Shown here: positions 23,802 to 33,318 of the stretch, one piece after another
Layout: each line of letters starts with the position of its first letter
How positions within the stretch are numbered: position 1 is the first letter of the stretch
DNA from: Thermoflexus hugenholtzii
Lineage (GTDB): Bacteria > Chloroflexota > Anaerolineae > Thermoflexales > Thermoflexaceae
Reading direction: 5' to 3'
NCBI RefSeq assembly: GCF_018771565.1
Contig: NZ_CP076326.1
Coordinates: forward strand, 806,001-870,000
DNA length: 64,000 nt
Notes under the pieces: generated by a model
The model's input: only the letters and a program-made list of their open reading frames with translations
What the model was told of the DNA's origin: nothing
Database searches by the model: none
Made by a program: the position numbers and the translations under genes

Positions 23802-24008
23802 TCAGCGTGAGGAACCTCCTCCTTCCTGCTCCTCGAGCTCCCGGATCAGCGTTTCGATGTCGATCCCATACACCCGGGCGGCGTCGGCCAGCGTCTCCAG
23901 GCCGGCCAGCGCGCACACCGGGCACCACATCCCCCAGCGGATCAGGATCTCGCGGGATCGGGGGTAGCGGGCCAGGAGCTCCTCAATGGACCAGTCCTTC
24001 CGGATCAT
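23802..24008 (-). CDS. DUF1858 small CxxC protein
   Basis: 68 residues. The pattern W-S-I-E-E-L-L-A-R-Y-P...ILIRWGMWCPVCALAGLETLADAAR.YGID matches the DUF1858 / hybrid-cluster-associated family, found near nitrogen-oxide and Fe-S-repair genes and fused to ScdA/Ric-type proteins. The CPVC motif is a likely redox or metal site. It overlaps the Crp/Fnr regulator stop by 4 bp, so the two are made together. Function unknown; a role in nitrosative-stress redox chemistry is inferred from context. Confidence 0.82.
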   Translation of the reverse strand: MIRKDWSIEELLARYPRSREILIRWGMWCPVCALAGLETLADAARVYGIDIETLIRELEEQEGGGSSR

Positions 24009-24817
24009 CCTGTCCTCCCCGGGCGTGTTCCTCCTTGATCATCGGCGGTCTTCCCTTCCCTCACCTTGCGCCCCGTCAAGGCCGGGGAAGGCTCCCGAAG
24101 TTCCAGCTCCTCCGCCAGGGCGACCAGGGCATGGGGTTCCCGCAACACGATCCGTCGCCGGCCCAGTCGAACCCAGCCAGCCCGCTGCCAGCGGTTGAGC
24201 AGCCGGCTCACCGTGTGCAGGCGGGTCCCGCACAGCTCCGCCAGCTCCTCCCGGCTCAACGGCATCGTCACAACGATCCCTTCTTCCGTGCGCTCCCCCA
24301 GCCGGCTGGCCAGCCGCACCAGCACCCGGGCCAGCCGGCGCTCCACCCGGAGGACGCTGACCTCCAGCAGCCGCCGATGCGTCTCGTGCAGCCGCTCCGC
24401 CAGCACCCGCAGGAGCCGCAGGGCGACCTCCGGATGGCGGAGCAGGAACCCGCGCAGGGCCTCCCCGGGAAGCCAGAGAGCCCGGGCAGGGGATATCGCT
24501 TGGGCGGAGGCCGGGTAGGGCGAATCCGCGAACGTCGCGATCAGGCCCAGCGGCTCTCCGGGCCCGGCCACCTGGACCACCACCTCCTGGCCGCTGACAT
24601 CCGTCTGGACGATCTTCACATAGCCCTCGAGGAGCAAATGAACTCCTTCTGCCGGATCCCCCTCCAGGAACAGGAAGCGGCCGGCGGGACATTTCCGTTC
24701 CACCCCCATATGGATCAGCGCCCGCAGGCTCTCGCGCGGCACGCCGCGGAAAAGCGGATATCCGCTCAAGACCTCCAGGAGCTCTCCTTCAGTCGTCCCG
24801 GGCCGCCTCTGTTCCAT
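24005..24817 (-). CDS. Crp/Fnr-family transcription regulator
   Basis: 270 residues: N-terminal cyclic-nucleotide-binding-type beta barrel (about 15-125; FLFLEGDPAEGVHLLLEGYVKI), long dimer helix, C-terminal winged helix (about 165-235) with recognition helix in ELCGTRLHTVSRLLNRW. The Ser-Arg pair of the FNR helix is kept but the usual Glu is His, so a variant DNA target is expected. No N-terminal Fe-S cysteine set, so it is more like DNR/NNR sensors (possibly heme, NO or CO) than FNR. Downstream of nirK and upstream of the DUF1858 gene, so the probable regulator of nirK. ATG 24817 chosen; the upstream extension is not family-like. Confidence 0.88.
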   Translation of the reverse strand: MEQRRPGTTEGELLEVLSGYPLFRGVPRESLRALIHMGVERKCPAGRFLFLEGDPAEGVHLLLEGYVKIVQTDVSGQEVVVQVAGPGEPLGLIATFADSPYPASAQAISPARALWLPGEALRGFLLRHPEVALRLLRVLAERLHETHRRLLEVSVLRVERRLARVLVRLASRLGERTEEGIVVTMPLSREELAELCGTRLHTVSRLLNRWQRAGWVRLGRRRIVLREPHALVALAEELELREPSPALTGRKVREGKTADDQGGTRPGRTG

Positions 24818-24939: not shown

Positions 24940-24978
24940 CGGGGGCTGGGAGACCCAGAAGCGATCTCCCAGCCCCCG
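24940..24978 (-). terminator. nirK terminator hairpin
   Basis: 14-bp arms CGGGGGCTGGGAGA and TCTCCCAGCCCCCG around an 11-nt loop, 17 bp after the nirK stop and ahead of the Crp/Fnr gene. Confidence 0.65.
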
Positions 24979-24994
24979 CATCCTGGCCCATCCC

Positions 24995-26068
24995 TTAGTG
25001 CCCGGAGTTGCCGGACGGAGTGCCCTGGAACAGATCCGGCCGCTCGGGGCCTTCTACGGTCAGGTATCCGGACAGCCCCCGCAGCATCCGCCACAGCGCG
25101 TGATCCACCAGCACGTAGCGGCCGGGGACTTCGGTGGTGAGCTCGAAGACCGCTGCCGAGCCCGGCGGCACATAAACGGTCTCTTCGTTCGCCACAAAGG
25201 TGTCCGGCGAGCCCGCATATACCCGGTCGAAGATCTCCCCGATGATGTGGAAGTTCGAGCCGACGTTCGGGCCACCTACCCCAAAGAAGATGCGGATCCG
25301 TTCACCGGTCTGCGCCCGCAGGGGATAGAGGTCGGTGAGGGTCTTCACGTGGCCGTTGAAAGTGAAATATTCGGGGCGCTCCGCCTGGGCCTTGGCGGAG
25401 TCGAAGGAGGCCAGGCCCGGCTGGCCGAAGGGAAGAGAGGTATACCATTCGCCTTGCACAACGTAGAACTCCCGGTCGACCGGCGGCAGACCTCCCTTCG
25501 GCTCCACCACGATGATGCCATACATGCCCATCCCGATGTGCAGCGGGGCCGGCGGATAGGCGCAGTGATAGATATACGCGCCCGGCTTCAGGGCCTTGAA
25601 GACCAAGGTCTTGGTCTCCCCCGGCGCCACGGTGGTGACCGTCGCTCCGCCGCCCGGGCCGGTGACCGCGTGCAGATCGATGTTGTGGGAGACGTGGTTC
25701 TCCGGAGGGTTCACCAGGCGGAGGACCACCGTGTCCCCCTCCATCACCCGGATCATCGGGCCGGGCACCGTCCCATCGAAGGTCCAGAAGGGGAAGGTCA
25801 CTCCGTCGGTCAGCTCCGCCACCACTTCCTTCACAGTGAGGGTGACCTCCACCGTGGTGGGCTCCGTGCGCCGGATCGGGGGCGGCACGTCCGCCGGATC
25901 CCGGACCACCCGGACTTTCGGCCCGCCCGGGGTGGGCGTAGGGTGCACATGGGCTTCTGAAGAGGCTGCGGGAGACGGGGTGGGCACGGCGGGCGTAGCC
26001 GCCACGGTCGTGCACGCCGTCAGGGCCATCATCAGCGCGCCGATAAGGAGCCATCGGGCCGGAACCAT
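24995..26068 (-). CDS. nirK: Copper-containing nitrite reductase NirK (lipoprotein form)
   Basis: Reduces nitrite to nitric oxide outside the cytoplasmic membrane. 357 residues, two cupredoxin domains. A lipobox LTAC (Cys19) and a Pro/Ser-rich linker to about 50 imply membrane anchoring, fitting a cell without an outer membrane. All copper ligands are visible: type 1 His128, Cys169, His177, Met182; type 2 His133, His168 and the distal His in LVDHALW. The catalytic Asp131 (HNIDLH) and the His of NFHIIGEIF are also present. Two Crp/Fnr-like operators lie upstream and a terminator downstream. A cupredoxin at 35515 is a candidate electron donor. Confidence 0.95.
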   Translation of the reverse strand: MVPARWLLIGALMMALTACTTVAATPAVPTPSPAASSEAHVHPTPTPGGPKVRVVRDPADVPPPIRRTEPTTVEVTLTVKEVVAELTDGVTFPFWTFDGTVPGPMIRVMEGDTVVLRLVNPPENHVSHNIDLHAVTGPGGGATVTTVAPGETKTLVFKALKPGAYIYHCAYPPAPLHIGMGMYGIIVVEPKGGLPPVDREFYVVQGEWYTSLPFGQPGLASFDSAKAQAERPEYFTFNGHVKTLTDLYPLRAQTGERIRIFFGVGGPNVGSNFHIIGEIFDRVYAGSPDTFVANEETVYVPPGSAAVFELTTEVPGRYVLVDHALWRMLRGLSGYLTVEGPERPDLFQGTPSGNSGH

Positions 26069-26148
26069 CGTTCACCTCCGCAAAGGGATTCCGGCCCTAT
26101 CTTCCCCGAGCCCAATGGCCTCCTCGTTGACTCTACCCAACGTTCCGG

Positions 26149-26164
26149 TGTGACAAGCGTCATC
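26149..26164. promoter_or_regulatory. Crp/Fnr-type operator half of a pair upstream of nirK (proximal)
   Basis: TGTGA-CAAGCG-TCATC, a near match to the TGTGA-N6-TCACA class. It is embedded in a direct repeat: ACGTTCCGGTGTGACAAG here and ACGTTCCGGGTGACAAAG at the distal site, 44 bp away centre to centre (about four helical turns). Confidence 0.55.
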
Positions 26165-26192
26165 GATCTGACGGTTTCGATCACACGTTCCG

Positions 26193-26208
26193 GGTGACAA
26201 AGATCACC
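26193..26208. promoter_or_regulatory. Crp/Fnr-type operator upstream of nirK (distal)
   Basis: GGTGA-CAAAGA-TCACC, a perfect 5-bp-arm inverted repeat with 6-bp centre, 125 bp upstream of the nirK start. Confidence 0.6.
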
Positions 26209-26246: not shown

Positions 26247-27329
26247 CTAAGCGGAATTTGGAGAAGGCGCGCGGCGTCCGGCCCGGAGGGCTCGGGCGAT
26301 GAGGAGCAGGAAGATCAGGATGGCCAGGCCGTTCAGCAGCCCGCCGACCCGCCGGGCGTCCGGCCATCCGCCGAGATCCCCGCTGAGGCGGAGCAGGAGC
26401 GAGAGGTGGAGGACTGCGAGGGGGAAGTAGAAGGCGACGGAGAAGGGGAGGCGCACCCGCAACACAGCCGGGAAGATGATCAGGGCGTGGCCGAAGATCA
26501 TCGAGAACACGAAGCCGATAAGGAGGGCGTGCACCCGGGCATCGTAAAGAGGCCCCGCTATCGCCTCACCGGGGAGCCACTCCAGGGCTCCACCGATCCC
26601 CAGCCAGACATAGCCGGCCAGCATGCACACCGCCACGTAGCGGACCAGGCCATGCTGGCGGACGGTGCGCCGGGCGATGTCGTAGCGGGCCAGCCAGGCG
26701 GCCAGGATCAGCCATCCCAGCCCCAGCGCCCGCCGGCCCCACGCCGGCTGGATCTCCCCCAGCGCCAGCCCCAGCAGAACCCATGCCAGGCCGGCACCGA
26801 ACAGACCCACCATCCCGCGTCCGCGGGGGATCAGGCGGGCCAGCTCCAGCCGCTCCCCGAAAATGGTCAGCACCAGGAAAGCGGTCCACCATGGGACAGC
26901 GGCGGCGAGGGTCCCGCGGACGAGCCAGACCGCCTGGCCGATGCCCCACAGCGCCGCCCCGATCCCCAGCACCCGGAAGGAGGGATCGGGATGCCGGCGG
27001 GCCGCATCGCCGAAGAAGAGGGTGAGGACGATGGCGCTGCCCAGGAACAGAAAGGCGCTTCCAGCCATCGGACGGCCCAGGAGCAGGGTGAGGCTGCCCA
27101 GGGCGGCCAGAAGGGGAGCCGCCCAGGACCAGCGGGGGCCGACGACCGCCCGTTCCAGGGCGATCAGGGTGCCCAGGAACCCGGAGATCATCAGCGCCCC
27201 ATGCGCGCCCGGCCAGGCCGGGTTCGGCCGGGGGAAGGCCCACCCGATCCGGATCCACCCGGCCCAAATCCCCACCCCCAGGGAGAGGAGCGCCACGAGC
27301 ATCAGTGGGAACCGCATCCGCAGCGGCAT
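26247..27329 (-). CDS. NnrS-like polytopic membrane protein
   Basis: 360 residues and about ten to twelve hydrophobic helices. Conserved-looking histidine motifs HGALMISGFLGTLIALER and VHALLIGFVFSMIFGHALI resemble NnrS, a heme- and copper-containing membrane protein tied to nitric-oxide stress and denitrification. It sits directly upstream of nirK on the same strand, supporting that role. The family call is from pattern and context; a related but unnamed membrane family is the alternative. The start at 27329 is followed at once by a hydrophobic helix. Confidence 0.62.
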   Translation of the reverse strand: MPLRMRFPLMLVALLSLGVGIWAGWIRIGWAFPRPNPAWPGAHGALMISGFLGTLIALERAVVGPRWSWAAPLLAALGSLTLLLGRPMAGSAFLFLGSAIVLTLFFGDAARRHPDPSFRVLGIGAALWGIGQAVWLVRGTLAAAVPWWTAFLVLTIFGERLELARLIPRGRGMVGLFGAGLAWVLLGLALGEIQPAWGRRALGLGWLILAAWLARYDIARRTVRQHGLVRYVAVCMLAGYVWLGIGGALEWLPGEAIAGPLYDARVHALLIGFVFSMIFGHALIIFPAVLRVRLPFSVAFYFPLAVLHLSLLLRLSGDLGGWPDARRVGGLLNGLAILIFLLLIARALRAGRRAPSPNSA

Positions 27330-27420
27330 CCTGACTCTTCACCCGGGATCAAATCTGAGAAGCTTGCCGTCTCCGGAAGCACGGTCGCGCTGATGTTTTA
27401 CCTCCGATCGGCGGAGCCCG

Positions 27421-27438
27421 CTTTGCGCGCGCGCAAAG
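27421..27438. promoter_or_regulatory. Perfect 18-bp palindrome in the nnrS-like / ndh divergent region
   Basis: CTTTGCGCGCGCGCAAAG, between the divergently transcribed NnrS-like gene (start 27329) and ndh (start 27484), 45 bp before the ndh ATG. A good operator candidate; no known consensus is assigned. Confidence 0.5.
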
Positions 27439-27483
27439 AGGCTCAGGATCCGACCGATCAGAATTCCGGAAGGGAGGTCATCC

Positions 27484-28746
27484 ATGGGAAAGCGCAGGCG
27501 GCCACGGATCGTGGTGGTGGGGGCAGGGTTCGGCGGGTTGTGGGCCGTGCGGACCCTGGCCTTTGAACCGGTGGAGGTGCTGCTGGTGGACCGTCGGAAC
27601 CACCACACGTTTTTCCCCTTGCTCTATCAGGTGGCGGCCGCCGAGATCGAGCCCGAGGCCATCGCTTTTCCCATCCGGGGGCTCCTGCGGCGTTTCCCCA
27701 ATGTGGGCTTCGAGATGGCGGAGGTGCAGGGGATCGACCTGACGGCCCGCCGGCTGGAGACCGATGGCCCACCCATCGATTACGACTTCCTGATCCTGGC
27801 TCCGGGGAGCCTGGCGCACACCTTCGGCGTTCCGGGAGTCGCCGAGCACGCCTTCTTCCTCAAAGACCTGGATCAGGCCGTCGCTCTGCGCAACCATATC
27901 CTGTCGGCTTTCGAGCGGGCGGCCCGGGAGCCGGATCCGCTCCGCCAGCGGCGTCTGCTGACCTTCGTGATCGTGGGCGGCGGCCCCACCGGCGTGGAGT
28001 TCGCGGGGGCCCTCGCTGAGCTCATCGCGCGCCCGCTGCGCCGGGATTTCCCCACCCTGGACTTCCGGGAGGTCCGCGTGCTCCTCCTCGAGGCGATGGA
28101 GGAGGTGCTCCCCGGGTTGCCGGCGGTCCTTTCCACCTATGCGCGGGAGCGGCTTCGTCATTTGGGCGTAGAAGTGCGGCGGCGCGCTCCCGTGGCCGCG
28201 GTGGGACCCGATTGGGTGCGCCTGCAGGATGGGGAAGAAATCGAGACGGCAACTGTGGTATGGACGGCCGGCGTGCGCGGGCATCCCCTGGGGGCAGCCC
28301 TGGGGCTTCCCCTTGGGCCAGGGGGGCGGGCACTGGTGACCCCCACCCTCCAGGTGCCCGGTCATCCAGAGATCTACGTGGTGGGAGATCTGGCGCTCCC
28401 GGAAGGGCCGGGGAAGCTGCCTATGGTCGCGCCGGTGGCCATCCAGCAAGGAACCCTCGCAGCGCGGAACATCCTGCGCGCCCTGAAGGGCCGCCCGCCA
28501 TTGCCCTTCCGTTATCGGGATCCGGGGACCCTGGTGACCATCGGGCGGAACGCCGCCGTCGCCCATGTGTTCGGGCGCGCCTTCACCGGCTTCGCGGCCT
28601 GGTTGCTCTGGCTGGGGGTTCACCTCATCCGCCTGATCGGGATGCGGAACCGTCTGGTGGTGCTCTCCGGCTGGGCATGGGATTATCTGTTCTACGAACG
28701 GGCGGTGCGCCTGATCCTCCCCTCGCCGCCCGTAAGGGGCAAATAG
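27484..28746 (+). CDS. ndh: Type II NADH:quinone oxidoreductase (NDH-2)
   Basis: 420-residue peripheral membrane flavoprotein that passes electrons from NADH to quinone without pumping protons. FAD-binding [13 protein letters not shown] at the N terminus, NADH-binding [19 protein letters not shown] near 160, FAD motif [12 protein letters not shown] near 300, and a C-terminal amphipathic region ([20 protein letters not shown]) that anchors to the membrane. GGAAGGGAGGTC precedes the ATG. Diverges from the NnrS-like/nirK genes, so it may feed electrons to the quinone pool during nitrite respiration; that link is inference. Confidence 0.93.
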
Positions 28747-31971: not shown

Positions 31972-32712
31972 TCAGCGCCCGCTGGCGCCCGCCTCCCTGC
32001 CCGATGAGGCGATCCGTCCGATGCGCACCCGCCAGACCTCTGGCCCCTGCTCCAGGTAGGCCCACTCGAACTGACCCGGGCGCTCATACTGGAACTGGTA
32101 ATACAGCGGCTTCGGGTCGTGATCGTTGATCAGGATGAAGGCCTCCCCGGGCCGCAACGCCTCGAAGGTCTGAAAGATCAGGGGATGGCGCTGAGGGGGC
32201 GGCACAGACCGAACGTCCAGCTCCTGCACGACCGTGAGGGGCACCTCTTGGCTCTCCCGGTGCATCTCCTCGAACACTCGTTGCTGCTCCTCCTCCGGCA
32301 GCTCGCGTTCGAACAGGGGGAGGTAGACGCGCTCCTCCTTCGTCATGTGCAGACGGAGGATGGCGTAGAGCTCCAGGAGCAGGCGCCGGAGCGAGCGTTC
32401 GGCGCCCGCCCGGCTCTCCGGGTCCATCCCCTCTATCTGCCGGAGGAGGTCCTCGATCTGACGGACGTAGCCTTCAATGAACGCGTGGTCCACCCGCATG
32501 GTCGCCGTCGCCTGACCGTGCCGGTGGAGCAGCGGCTCCACCGCGGGATAAAGGGCCCGTTCCTCTCCTCGCGCGTGGGGGAGCAGCTCCTGCCGGAGAA
32601 AGTCCCGCAGGCTCCTCAGCTCCTCCCATGAGAACGCTGGACCCTCCACATACGCCGCCAGATATTCCAGCAGCATGCGGTGATGCTCCCGAAAGGCCTC
32701 TCCCACGCCCAT
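31972..32712 (-). CDS. Hemerythrin-DUF2249 fusion protein
   Basis: 246 residues. N-terminal hemerythrin HHE domain (about 5-145): iron-ligand histidines in FREHHRML, LPHARGEER, RVDHAFIEG and LRLHMTKEER, each followed by acidic residues. C-terminal DUF2249 domain (about 165-235): ELDVRSVPPPQRHPLIFQTFEAL, GEAFILINDHDPKPLYYQF. Both domains are widespread in nitric-oxide detoxification and denitrification loci. ATG 32712 has GGAGG six bases upstream; an in-frame ATG at 32760 is weaker. Diverges from the second hemerythrin across two FNR-like boxes. Confidence 0.88.
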   Translation of the reverse strand: MGVGEAFREHHRMLLEYLAAYVEGPAFSWEELRSLRDFLRQELLPHARGEERALYPAVEPLLHRHGQATATMRVDHAFIEGYVRQIEDLLRQIEGMDPESRAGAERSLRRLLLELYAILRLHMTKEERVYLPLFERELPEEEQQRVFEEMHRESQEVPLTVVQELDVRSVPPPQRHPLIFQTFEALRPGEAFILINDHDPKPLYYQFQYERPGQFEWAYLEQGPEVWRVRIGRIASSGREAGASGR

Positions 32713-32772
32713 CGTCGGCCTCCTGCCCTTGGATTCCGGATCCCACTTTAGGTCGGCCATGTCAGCTCGACC

Positions 32773-32786
32773 TTGTTCCAGGTCAA
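32773..32786. promoter_or_regulatory. FNR/DNR-like box 1 between divergent hemerythrin genes
   Basis: TTGTTCCAGGTCAA matches 8 of 10 fixed positions of TTGAT-N4-ATCAA. Only 61 bp upstream of the hemerythrin-DUF2249 start. Confidence 0.5.
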
Positions 32787-32796
32787 GCTGCGGCCT

Positions 32797-32810
32797 TTGA
32801 TCCGGCACAA
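32797..32810. promoter_or_regulatory. FNR/DNR-like box 2 between divergent hemerythrin genes
   Basis: TTGATCCGGCACAA also matches 8 of 10 fixed positions of the same consensus and lies 24 bp (centre to centre) from box 1. Two such sites in a 192-bp gap between related genes favours real operators. Confidence 0.5.
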
Positions 32811-32904
32811 CCCTCGGAACGCATTCAGGCTGGAAGATGAGCGCGGACGACGACGGTTCCGGATGCGAAGCCTGAGGTGCTGAAACCCTTCTCGGAGGTG
32901 AGCG

Positions 32905-33318
32905 ATGGAAGAGGAAGCCCGGATCGCTCGTGCGCTGCGGGCGGAGCATCGGCTGCTGCGGCGGCTGATGGTCCGTATGGCGGACTGGATCGCCAGCGGG
33001 GTCCCTTCCTCGGCGTTGCGGGAGCGGGCCCGCATGCTCTTCGAGGCGCTGGACGATCACGCCCGGTTCGAGGAGGAGGCCCTGTTTGTCCCGATGCGCC
33101 GCCGCTGGCCGGCCGCGCGCCACATCCTGGAGATGATGGAGATCGTCCACGAGGAGGTGCGCGACGTGTTTCGGTGGGCTCTGGAGGCGCCGGATCCACG
33201 AGAGGACCTCTGGACTCTCCTCCAGCTCTCCGAGGAGCATTTCCGCGTGGAGGAGGAGACGGTGTTCCCTCTGGCGGAGAACGAGTCAGCCGATGAGAGC
33301 CCCAGCCCCGGGATTTGA
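32905..33318 (+). CDS. Hemerythrin-like (HHE) protein
   Basis: 137 residues, a single four-helix HHE domain. Candidate di-iron ligands: His in RAEHRLLR, DDHARFEEE, IVHEEV and SEEHFRVEEE with adjacent glutamates. Probably binds O2 or NO. GGAGGTGAGCG precedes the ATG. Diverges from the hemerythrin-DUF2249 gene. A perfectly spaced sigma-70 promoter for the next small gene overlaps its 3' end. Confidence 0.85.
   Translation: MEEEARIARALRAEHRLLRRLMVRMADWIASGVPSSALRERARMLFEALDDHARFEEEALFVPMRRRWPAARHILEMMEIVHEEVRDVFRWALEAPDPREDLWTLLQLSEEHFRVEEETVFPLAENESADESPSPGI

Follow-up and report, generated by a model that had tools for sequence, protein, structure and literature searches.

Gene content and features of the locus

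The window, by which we mean the whole 64,000-nucleotide stretch of Thermoflexus hugenholtzii DNA that was analysed, carries on its minus strand a run of three genes in the order membrane protein, nirK and Crp/Fnr regulator (Table 1). The copper nitrite reductase was identified by TIGR02376 (314.8 bits; cutoff, 296.3), and the product of the regulator gene contains the domains PF00027 (69.2 bits) and PF13545 (64.3 bits). A gap of 178 bp separates the membrane-protein gene from nirK and holds both palindromes that had been reported at this locus, whereas a box of the NnrR type, 1.2 kb further upstream, heads the run.

The multi-TM protein encoded by the first gene matched no family in Pfam or NCBIfam, and a tentative assignment as nnrS was dropped for want of support in the family searches. 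Its homologues (37–43% identity) are hypothetical proteins on proteobacterial plasmids, where the neighbouring genes encode DUF2249, a metal-sulfur assembly factor, hemerythrin, NnrS or NO reductase. We consider it a candidate for an uncharacterised nitrogen-oxide protein family. A GC-rich inverted repeat (GGGGGCTGGGAGA...TCTCCCAGCCCCC, positions 24941–24978) lies just behind the nirK stop, ahead of the regulator gene; it lacks a run of T on the nirK strand and is a tentative candidate for a terminator or an RNA-stability element. In another Thermoflexus genome, G001, a second membrane-protein/nirK/regulator run was observed (L051:4864-7141, G001:C57), its nirK only a fragment.

Table 1. Features of the nirK locus, in positions of the window
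Feature	Position	Strand	Basis or remark
NnrR-type Crp/Fnr regulator	24005–24817	-	PF00027 + PF13545; Leu/His/Arg triad; tree
Recognition helix TRLHTVSR of the nirK-linked regulator	24203–24226	-	coordinates computed from residues 198–205
nirK, copper nitrite reductase	24995–26068	-	TIGR02376
9-nt direct repeat ACGTTCCGG, copy 1	26140–26148	+	not significant alone
nirK-proximal palindrome TGTGA-N6-TCATC, CRP-type, TGTGACAAGCGTCATC	26149–26164		exact match
9-nt direct repeat ACGTTCCGG, copy 2, period 45	26185–26193	+	
Distal palindrome GGTGA-N6-TCACC, CRP-type, GGTGACAAAGATCACC	26193–26208		exact match
Multi-TM protein, no family assigned, first gene of the run	26247–27329	-	no Pfam/NCBIfam match
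TAAAAC, -10-like hexamer assigned to the nirK run (centre of the box at -41.5)	27395–27400	-	offset 22 after the box
TTTGCGCGCGCGCAAA, box of the NnrR type and putative operator for the nirK-linked regulator	27422–27437		agrees with the class motif at every position
CAGAAT, -10-like hexamer assigned to the divergent NDH-2-like gene (centre of the box at -41.5)	27459–27464	+	offset 22, other side
Divergent NDH-2-like oxidoreductase	27484–28746	+	Pyr_redox_2 + NDH2_C

The nirK-linked regulator

The first-pass annotation had noticed that the Glu usual in the recognition helix of FNR is replaced by His in the regulator encoded beside nirK, and the helix indeed carries Leu180, His181 and Arg185 (CRP numbering). 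Five alphaproteobacterial Crp/Fnr proteins from denitrification clusters on annotated plasmids share a TLHT[VI]SR helix (the helix was read in all five, the Leu/His/Arg triad aligned in two). The Phaeobacter protein is encoded beside nos, nor and NnrS genes, that of Sinorhizobium near norD and NnrS, that of Azospirillum beside NnrS, and that of Paracoccus near nor genes and pseudoazurin; the Chelatococcus gene adjoins nirK. Phylogenetically, the clade of the window protein and the class proteins with a [YF]TVSR helix grouped with alphaproteobacterial NnrR, and LETAIR, TPQTIS, CRP and FNR proteins fell outside this grouping, whose support (90/88, below the starred level) is modest. The FNR Fe-S four-cysteine set is absent from the nirK-linked regulator, neither of its two cysteines standing at an FNR position, and the residues of the cAMP pocket (E72, R82, S83) and R180/E181 are replaced by L, Y, P and L/H, respectively. 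The regulator gene adjoins nirK in each of the four Thermoflexus genomes that carry nirK, and the same adjacency recurs in many genomes of the class. On its sequence, the protein is an NnrR-type regulator.

The known NnrR box is ctTTGcgnnnncgCAAag (Rodionov et al. 2005, PMC1274295), and a published correlation links G3 of the TGTGA half-site with R180 and A6 with E181 (PMC1274295). The nirK-linked regulator has neither residue. The Glu-to-His change had been offered as a possible cause of the GGTGA half-site, an explanation that finds no support here: alphaproteobacterial NnrR-type proteins share this helix, and their published box is ctTTGcgnnnncgCAAag.

An NnrR-type box across the class and in the window

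We took nirK loci from across the class and searched 39 nirK upstream regions outside the genus Thermoflexus for inverted repeats without a preset motif. The search returned TTTGCGC-N2-GCGCAAA, the core of which occurred in 14 of the 39 regions against 0.05 expected. A first such scan had yielded TTGA-N8-TCAA, a candidate rejected because these stretches are coding and represent the DIDG-x-[VI]NP codons of an N-terminally extended NirK; the scan was then repeated with corrected gene starts. Crp/Fnr proteins with a [YF]-[TS]-[VI]-S-R helix recur next to nirK across the class, and the box (≤1 mismatch) was present at 14/15 nirK loci with this helix and at none of the five with a TPQTIS helix. 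The exception, locus L093 (helix TNLYSVSR, box absent), counts against the two-input reading that we propose below. At the genome level, the box was detected in 27/53 genomes with nirK versus 53/343 without it. Counted over 66 box sides, hexamers resembling a -10 element stood at an offset of 22 after the box in 21 cases, the mean being 1.3 per offset. With this geometry the box is centred at -41.5, the position of a class-II activator. Since related genera supply many of the loci, the p-values overstate independence. A literature search restricted to open-access papers yielded no account of NnrR boxes from Chloroflexota.

The window box TTTGCGCGCGCGCAAA is the sole exact copy in the genome, and no one-mismatch copy was found genome-wide. 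The same box occurs in Thermoflexus genome G004. Because it is perfect, unique and flanked by hexamers at offset 22, it is likely the operator of the nirK-linked regulator. Two observations count against this part of our reading: in G001, no box stands in the gap preceding the membrane-protein gene that accompanies the truncated nirK, and the window hexamer TAAAAC ends in C, not T. The corresponding gap of G008 is missing from the assembly. Exact or one-mismatch boxes of this type also precede a hemerythrin gene in G001 and G008.

The window has its own hemerythrin-DUF2249 gene near the nirK run (31972–33240, minus strand), without a good box. In the G001/G008 promoters of this gene, the box is exact in L241 and has one mismatch in L240 and L243, and a second site, TTTG-N8-CAA(A/G), lies 22 nt before a TATA-like hexamer.

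The palindrome pair directly upstream of nirK

Both reported palindromes are present letter for letter at 26149–26164 and 26193–26208, and their description as operators of Crp/Fnr shape is supported. The distal site is a full GTGA-N6-TCAC and the proximal one reads GTGA-N6-TCAT, so that both resemble the TGTGA-N6-TCACA sites found throughout the genus. The 44-bp direct repeat described around them holds in part: the palindrome centres are 44 bp apart, but the exact repeat comprises just 9 nt with a period of 45, the difference being accounted for by a 1-nt indel. A 9-mer repeat arose in 10% of shuffles of the 178-bp gap and is not rare. By the same procedure, the combination of two TGA-N6-TCA and one GTGA-N6-TCAC had p = 1.6e-4, and GGTGA-N6-TCACC had p = 2.4e-4. 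Among the intergenic sites of the 64 kb, the pair represents the sole GTGA-N6-TCAC and two of the three TGA-N6-TCA.

A genome scan for GGTGA-N6-TCACC, which the first-pass annotation had suggested, gave 34 copies. The nirK copy is the only clearly intergenic one, the other 33 falling inside ORFs (as placed by a crude ORF caller, with 3/33 within 60 bp of an ORF end). Given this distribution, GGTGA-N6-TCACC by itself is weak evidence, and we rejected it as a regulon-wide motif.

A nirK of this kind occurs in four of the nine Thermoflexus genomes. All four have a TGA-N6-TCA palindrome 83–88 bp upstream of the nirK start codon, and TGA-N-G-N2-TGTCA is invariant in the four-genome alignment of the upstream regions, where mean column identity is 62%. 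The distal partner is GGTGAGCTTTGTCACC in G004, 44 bp further upstream, and CCTGACGAAGCTCACG in G001, 45 bp from the proximal site. Lack of conservation upstream of nirK in relatives, which the first-pass annotation had named as grounds for refutation, is thus not what the comparison shows: the proximal core is kept in 4/4 genomes, the partner being degenerate in G008. A comparison of the Thermoflexus nirK gaps and a simple promoter scan revealed no conserved promoter around the pair, and no -10 element at class-II distance from it is conserved in the Thermoflexus relatives, which counts against the two-input reading given below.

The pair could lack a regulatory function altogether and consist of chance palindromes carried along in close relatives. 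GGTGA-N6-TCACC is indeed common in the coding DNA of this genome, and two near-identical genomes supply half of the conservation. However, shuffles of the gap gave p of about 2e-4, and the proximal core is unchanged in two additional promoters despite their strong divergence, a partner lying at 45 bp. A chance origin of the pair is unlikely, and we give a functionless pair a correspondingly low probability.

A genus-wide set of TGTGA sites and its candidate reader

TGTGA-N6-TCACA occurs at 27 sites distributed over all nine Thermoflexus genomes; the reversed pattern, used as a control, yielded none. These sites precede a hydrogenase-beta-like gene (next to hypE) and the genes for citrate synthase, isocitrate dehydrogenase and atpA, and a tandem pair (TGTGATCTTTTTCACC and CGTGAAATTCTTCACT, 22 bp apart) precedes hdrC/hdrB-like genes. 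Both nirK and a close copy of the nirK-linked regulator are missing from five of the nine genomes, and GTGA-N6-TCAC sites also occur in genomes without them. Across the class, GTGA-N6-TCAC was present in 3/39 nirK regions once loci L108 and L117 were excluded; their GTGATATTTTTCAC was rejected as a CRP site, since it overlaps the -10 element of an NnrR-type promoter and so is not independent. One perfect CRP-type palindrome, TGTGAAATCTATCACA, was observed within a CRISPR-array spacer (L136:1577-1592, G000:C1:1100476).

The genome of T. hugenholtzii encodes only two full Crp/Fnr proteins. The second, at genome position 1368399, has the helix LETAIR with Leu180-Glu181. A third candidate, at 2130542, was set aside because the product of this ORF does not look like a Crp/Fnr protein and appears SufR-like by eye. 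By elimination, the LETAIR protein is the best candidate reader of the GTGA sites, the nirK pair included. Caution is warranted because it carries Leu180, whereas in the published correlation the first G goes with Arg180 (PMC1274295). TGTGA sites were also sought upstream of the LETAIR-type genes themselves and were not enriched there, and no description of a target sequence for the LETAIR-helix group was found.

At the isocitrate dehydrogenase and atpA genes of other Thermoflexus genomes (L204, L205, L194 around 1509), TGTGA-N6-TCACA directly follows a TATAAT-like -10 element, which suggests repression at these promoters. The nirK pair might likewise be a repressor operator, at which a CRP-type protein (LETAIR or another) blocks an internal nirK promoter when nirK is unwanted. 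Such a role would suit the spacing of about four helical turns, the repressor position of the sites at the two genes just named, and a TAGAGT/TAAAGT hexamer that follows the proximal site of G000 and G004 at a distance of 14 nt. Yet neither G008 nor G001 has retained TAGAGT, no promoter passed the simple scan, and we judge this explanation improbable.

Two putative inputs to the nirK run

We consider it fairly probable that the nirK run receives two Crp/Fnr-type inputs, one through the NnrR-type box and one through the CRP-type pair, the latter read by the LETAIR protein. Motifs, conservation, geometry and the link to helix type are read from the sequence; binding, direction of control and signal are what we infer. 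The first input is well supported. The NnrR-type regulator would bind 27422–27437, centred at -41.5 before the first gene of the run, and would activate the run in a class-II fashion; the divergent NDH-2-like gene is perhaps co-activated from the same box. The signal would presumably be NO or nitrite, as for NnrR. The second input is less certain. Here, the GTGA-N6-TCAC pair would provide the operators of another regulator, of the CRP type, with TGTGA-N6-TCACA targets before energy-metabolism genes throughout Thermoflexus. By elimination this would be the LETAIR protein, and the effect of the pair on nirK could be either activation or repression. More tentatively, nirK may be connected to two distinct Crp/Fnr proteins by two kinds of operator in separate gaps of a single run. 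One would be the NnrR-type box, held in common with the divergent NDH-2-like gene; the other, the tandem TGTGA-type pair, would belong to a global energy regulator, the LETAIR protein, reading TGTGA without Arg180 and so outside the R180/E181 correlation.

The original proposal made the GGTGA/TGTGA pair a direct target of the nirK-linked His-helix regulator and attributed a shift of the half-site from TTGAT to GGTGA to His in place of Glu. It can draw on the shared gene run and on the retention of the pair in just those genomes that carry both, but it is very unlikely, because the helix that this regulator shares with NnrR is associated there with TTTGCG-N4-CGCAAA, a perfect NnrR-type box heads the run, GTGA-type sites are genus-wide and occur in genomes without the regulator, and the protein has neither E181 nor R180, the residues correlated with A6 and G3 of TGTGA. 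Most likely, then, the pair was a correct observation to which the wrong regulator had been assigned.

Relation to known systems

The system is most likely a Chloroflexota member of the known NnrR kind with an added CRP-type operator pair at nirK. With the NnrR regulon of Alphaproteobacteria (Rhodobacter sphaeroides, Bradyrhizobium; PMC1274295, PMC6710368) it shares the Leu/His/Arg triad, a TTTGCG-N4-CGCAAA-type box, the linkage to nirK and nitrogen-oxide genes, a single box between divergent genes and the lack of the FNR cysteine set. It differs in belonging to a thermophile of the Chloroflexota, in the position of the box at the head of a membrane-protein/nirK/regulator run, in an apparently single-site regulon and in the extra TGTGA-type pair at nirK. 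Dual control of the Bradyrhizobium nirK by FixK2 and NnrR (PMC6710368) likewise brings two Crp/Fnr-type inputs to denitrification genes. There, however, FixK2 reads TTGA/C-N6-T/GCAA boxes, whereas the second input proposed here is of the TGTGA type and lies in a separate gap directly before nirK. The genus-wide sites resemble the wTGTGAnnnnnnTCACAw operators of HcpR1 and CRP (PMC1274295), which the nirK pair matches only loosely. Those regulators have Arg180-Glu181, in contrast to Leu180-Glu181 in the candidate reader, and, unlike the HcpR1 set, the Thermoflexus set is found at hydrogenase, TCA and ATP synthase genes instead of hcp. No description of a Chloroflexota instance of this kind was found in the open-access literature.

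A plausible but probably wrong pairing of regulator and operator is thereby replaced by one that can be tested. The correspondence between NnrR box and helix would extend to the Chloroflexota, with a strong signal of class-II geometry, and a second, genus-wide CRP-type energy regulon is predicted in Thermoflexus, which would be read by the LETAIR-helix group of Crp/Fnr proteins.
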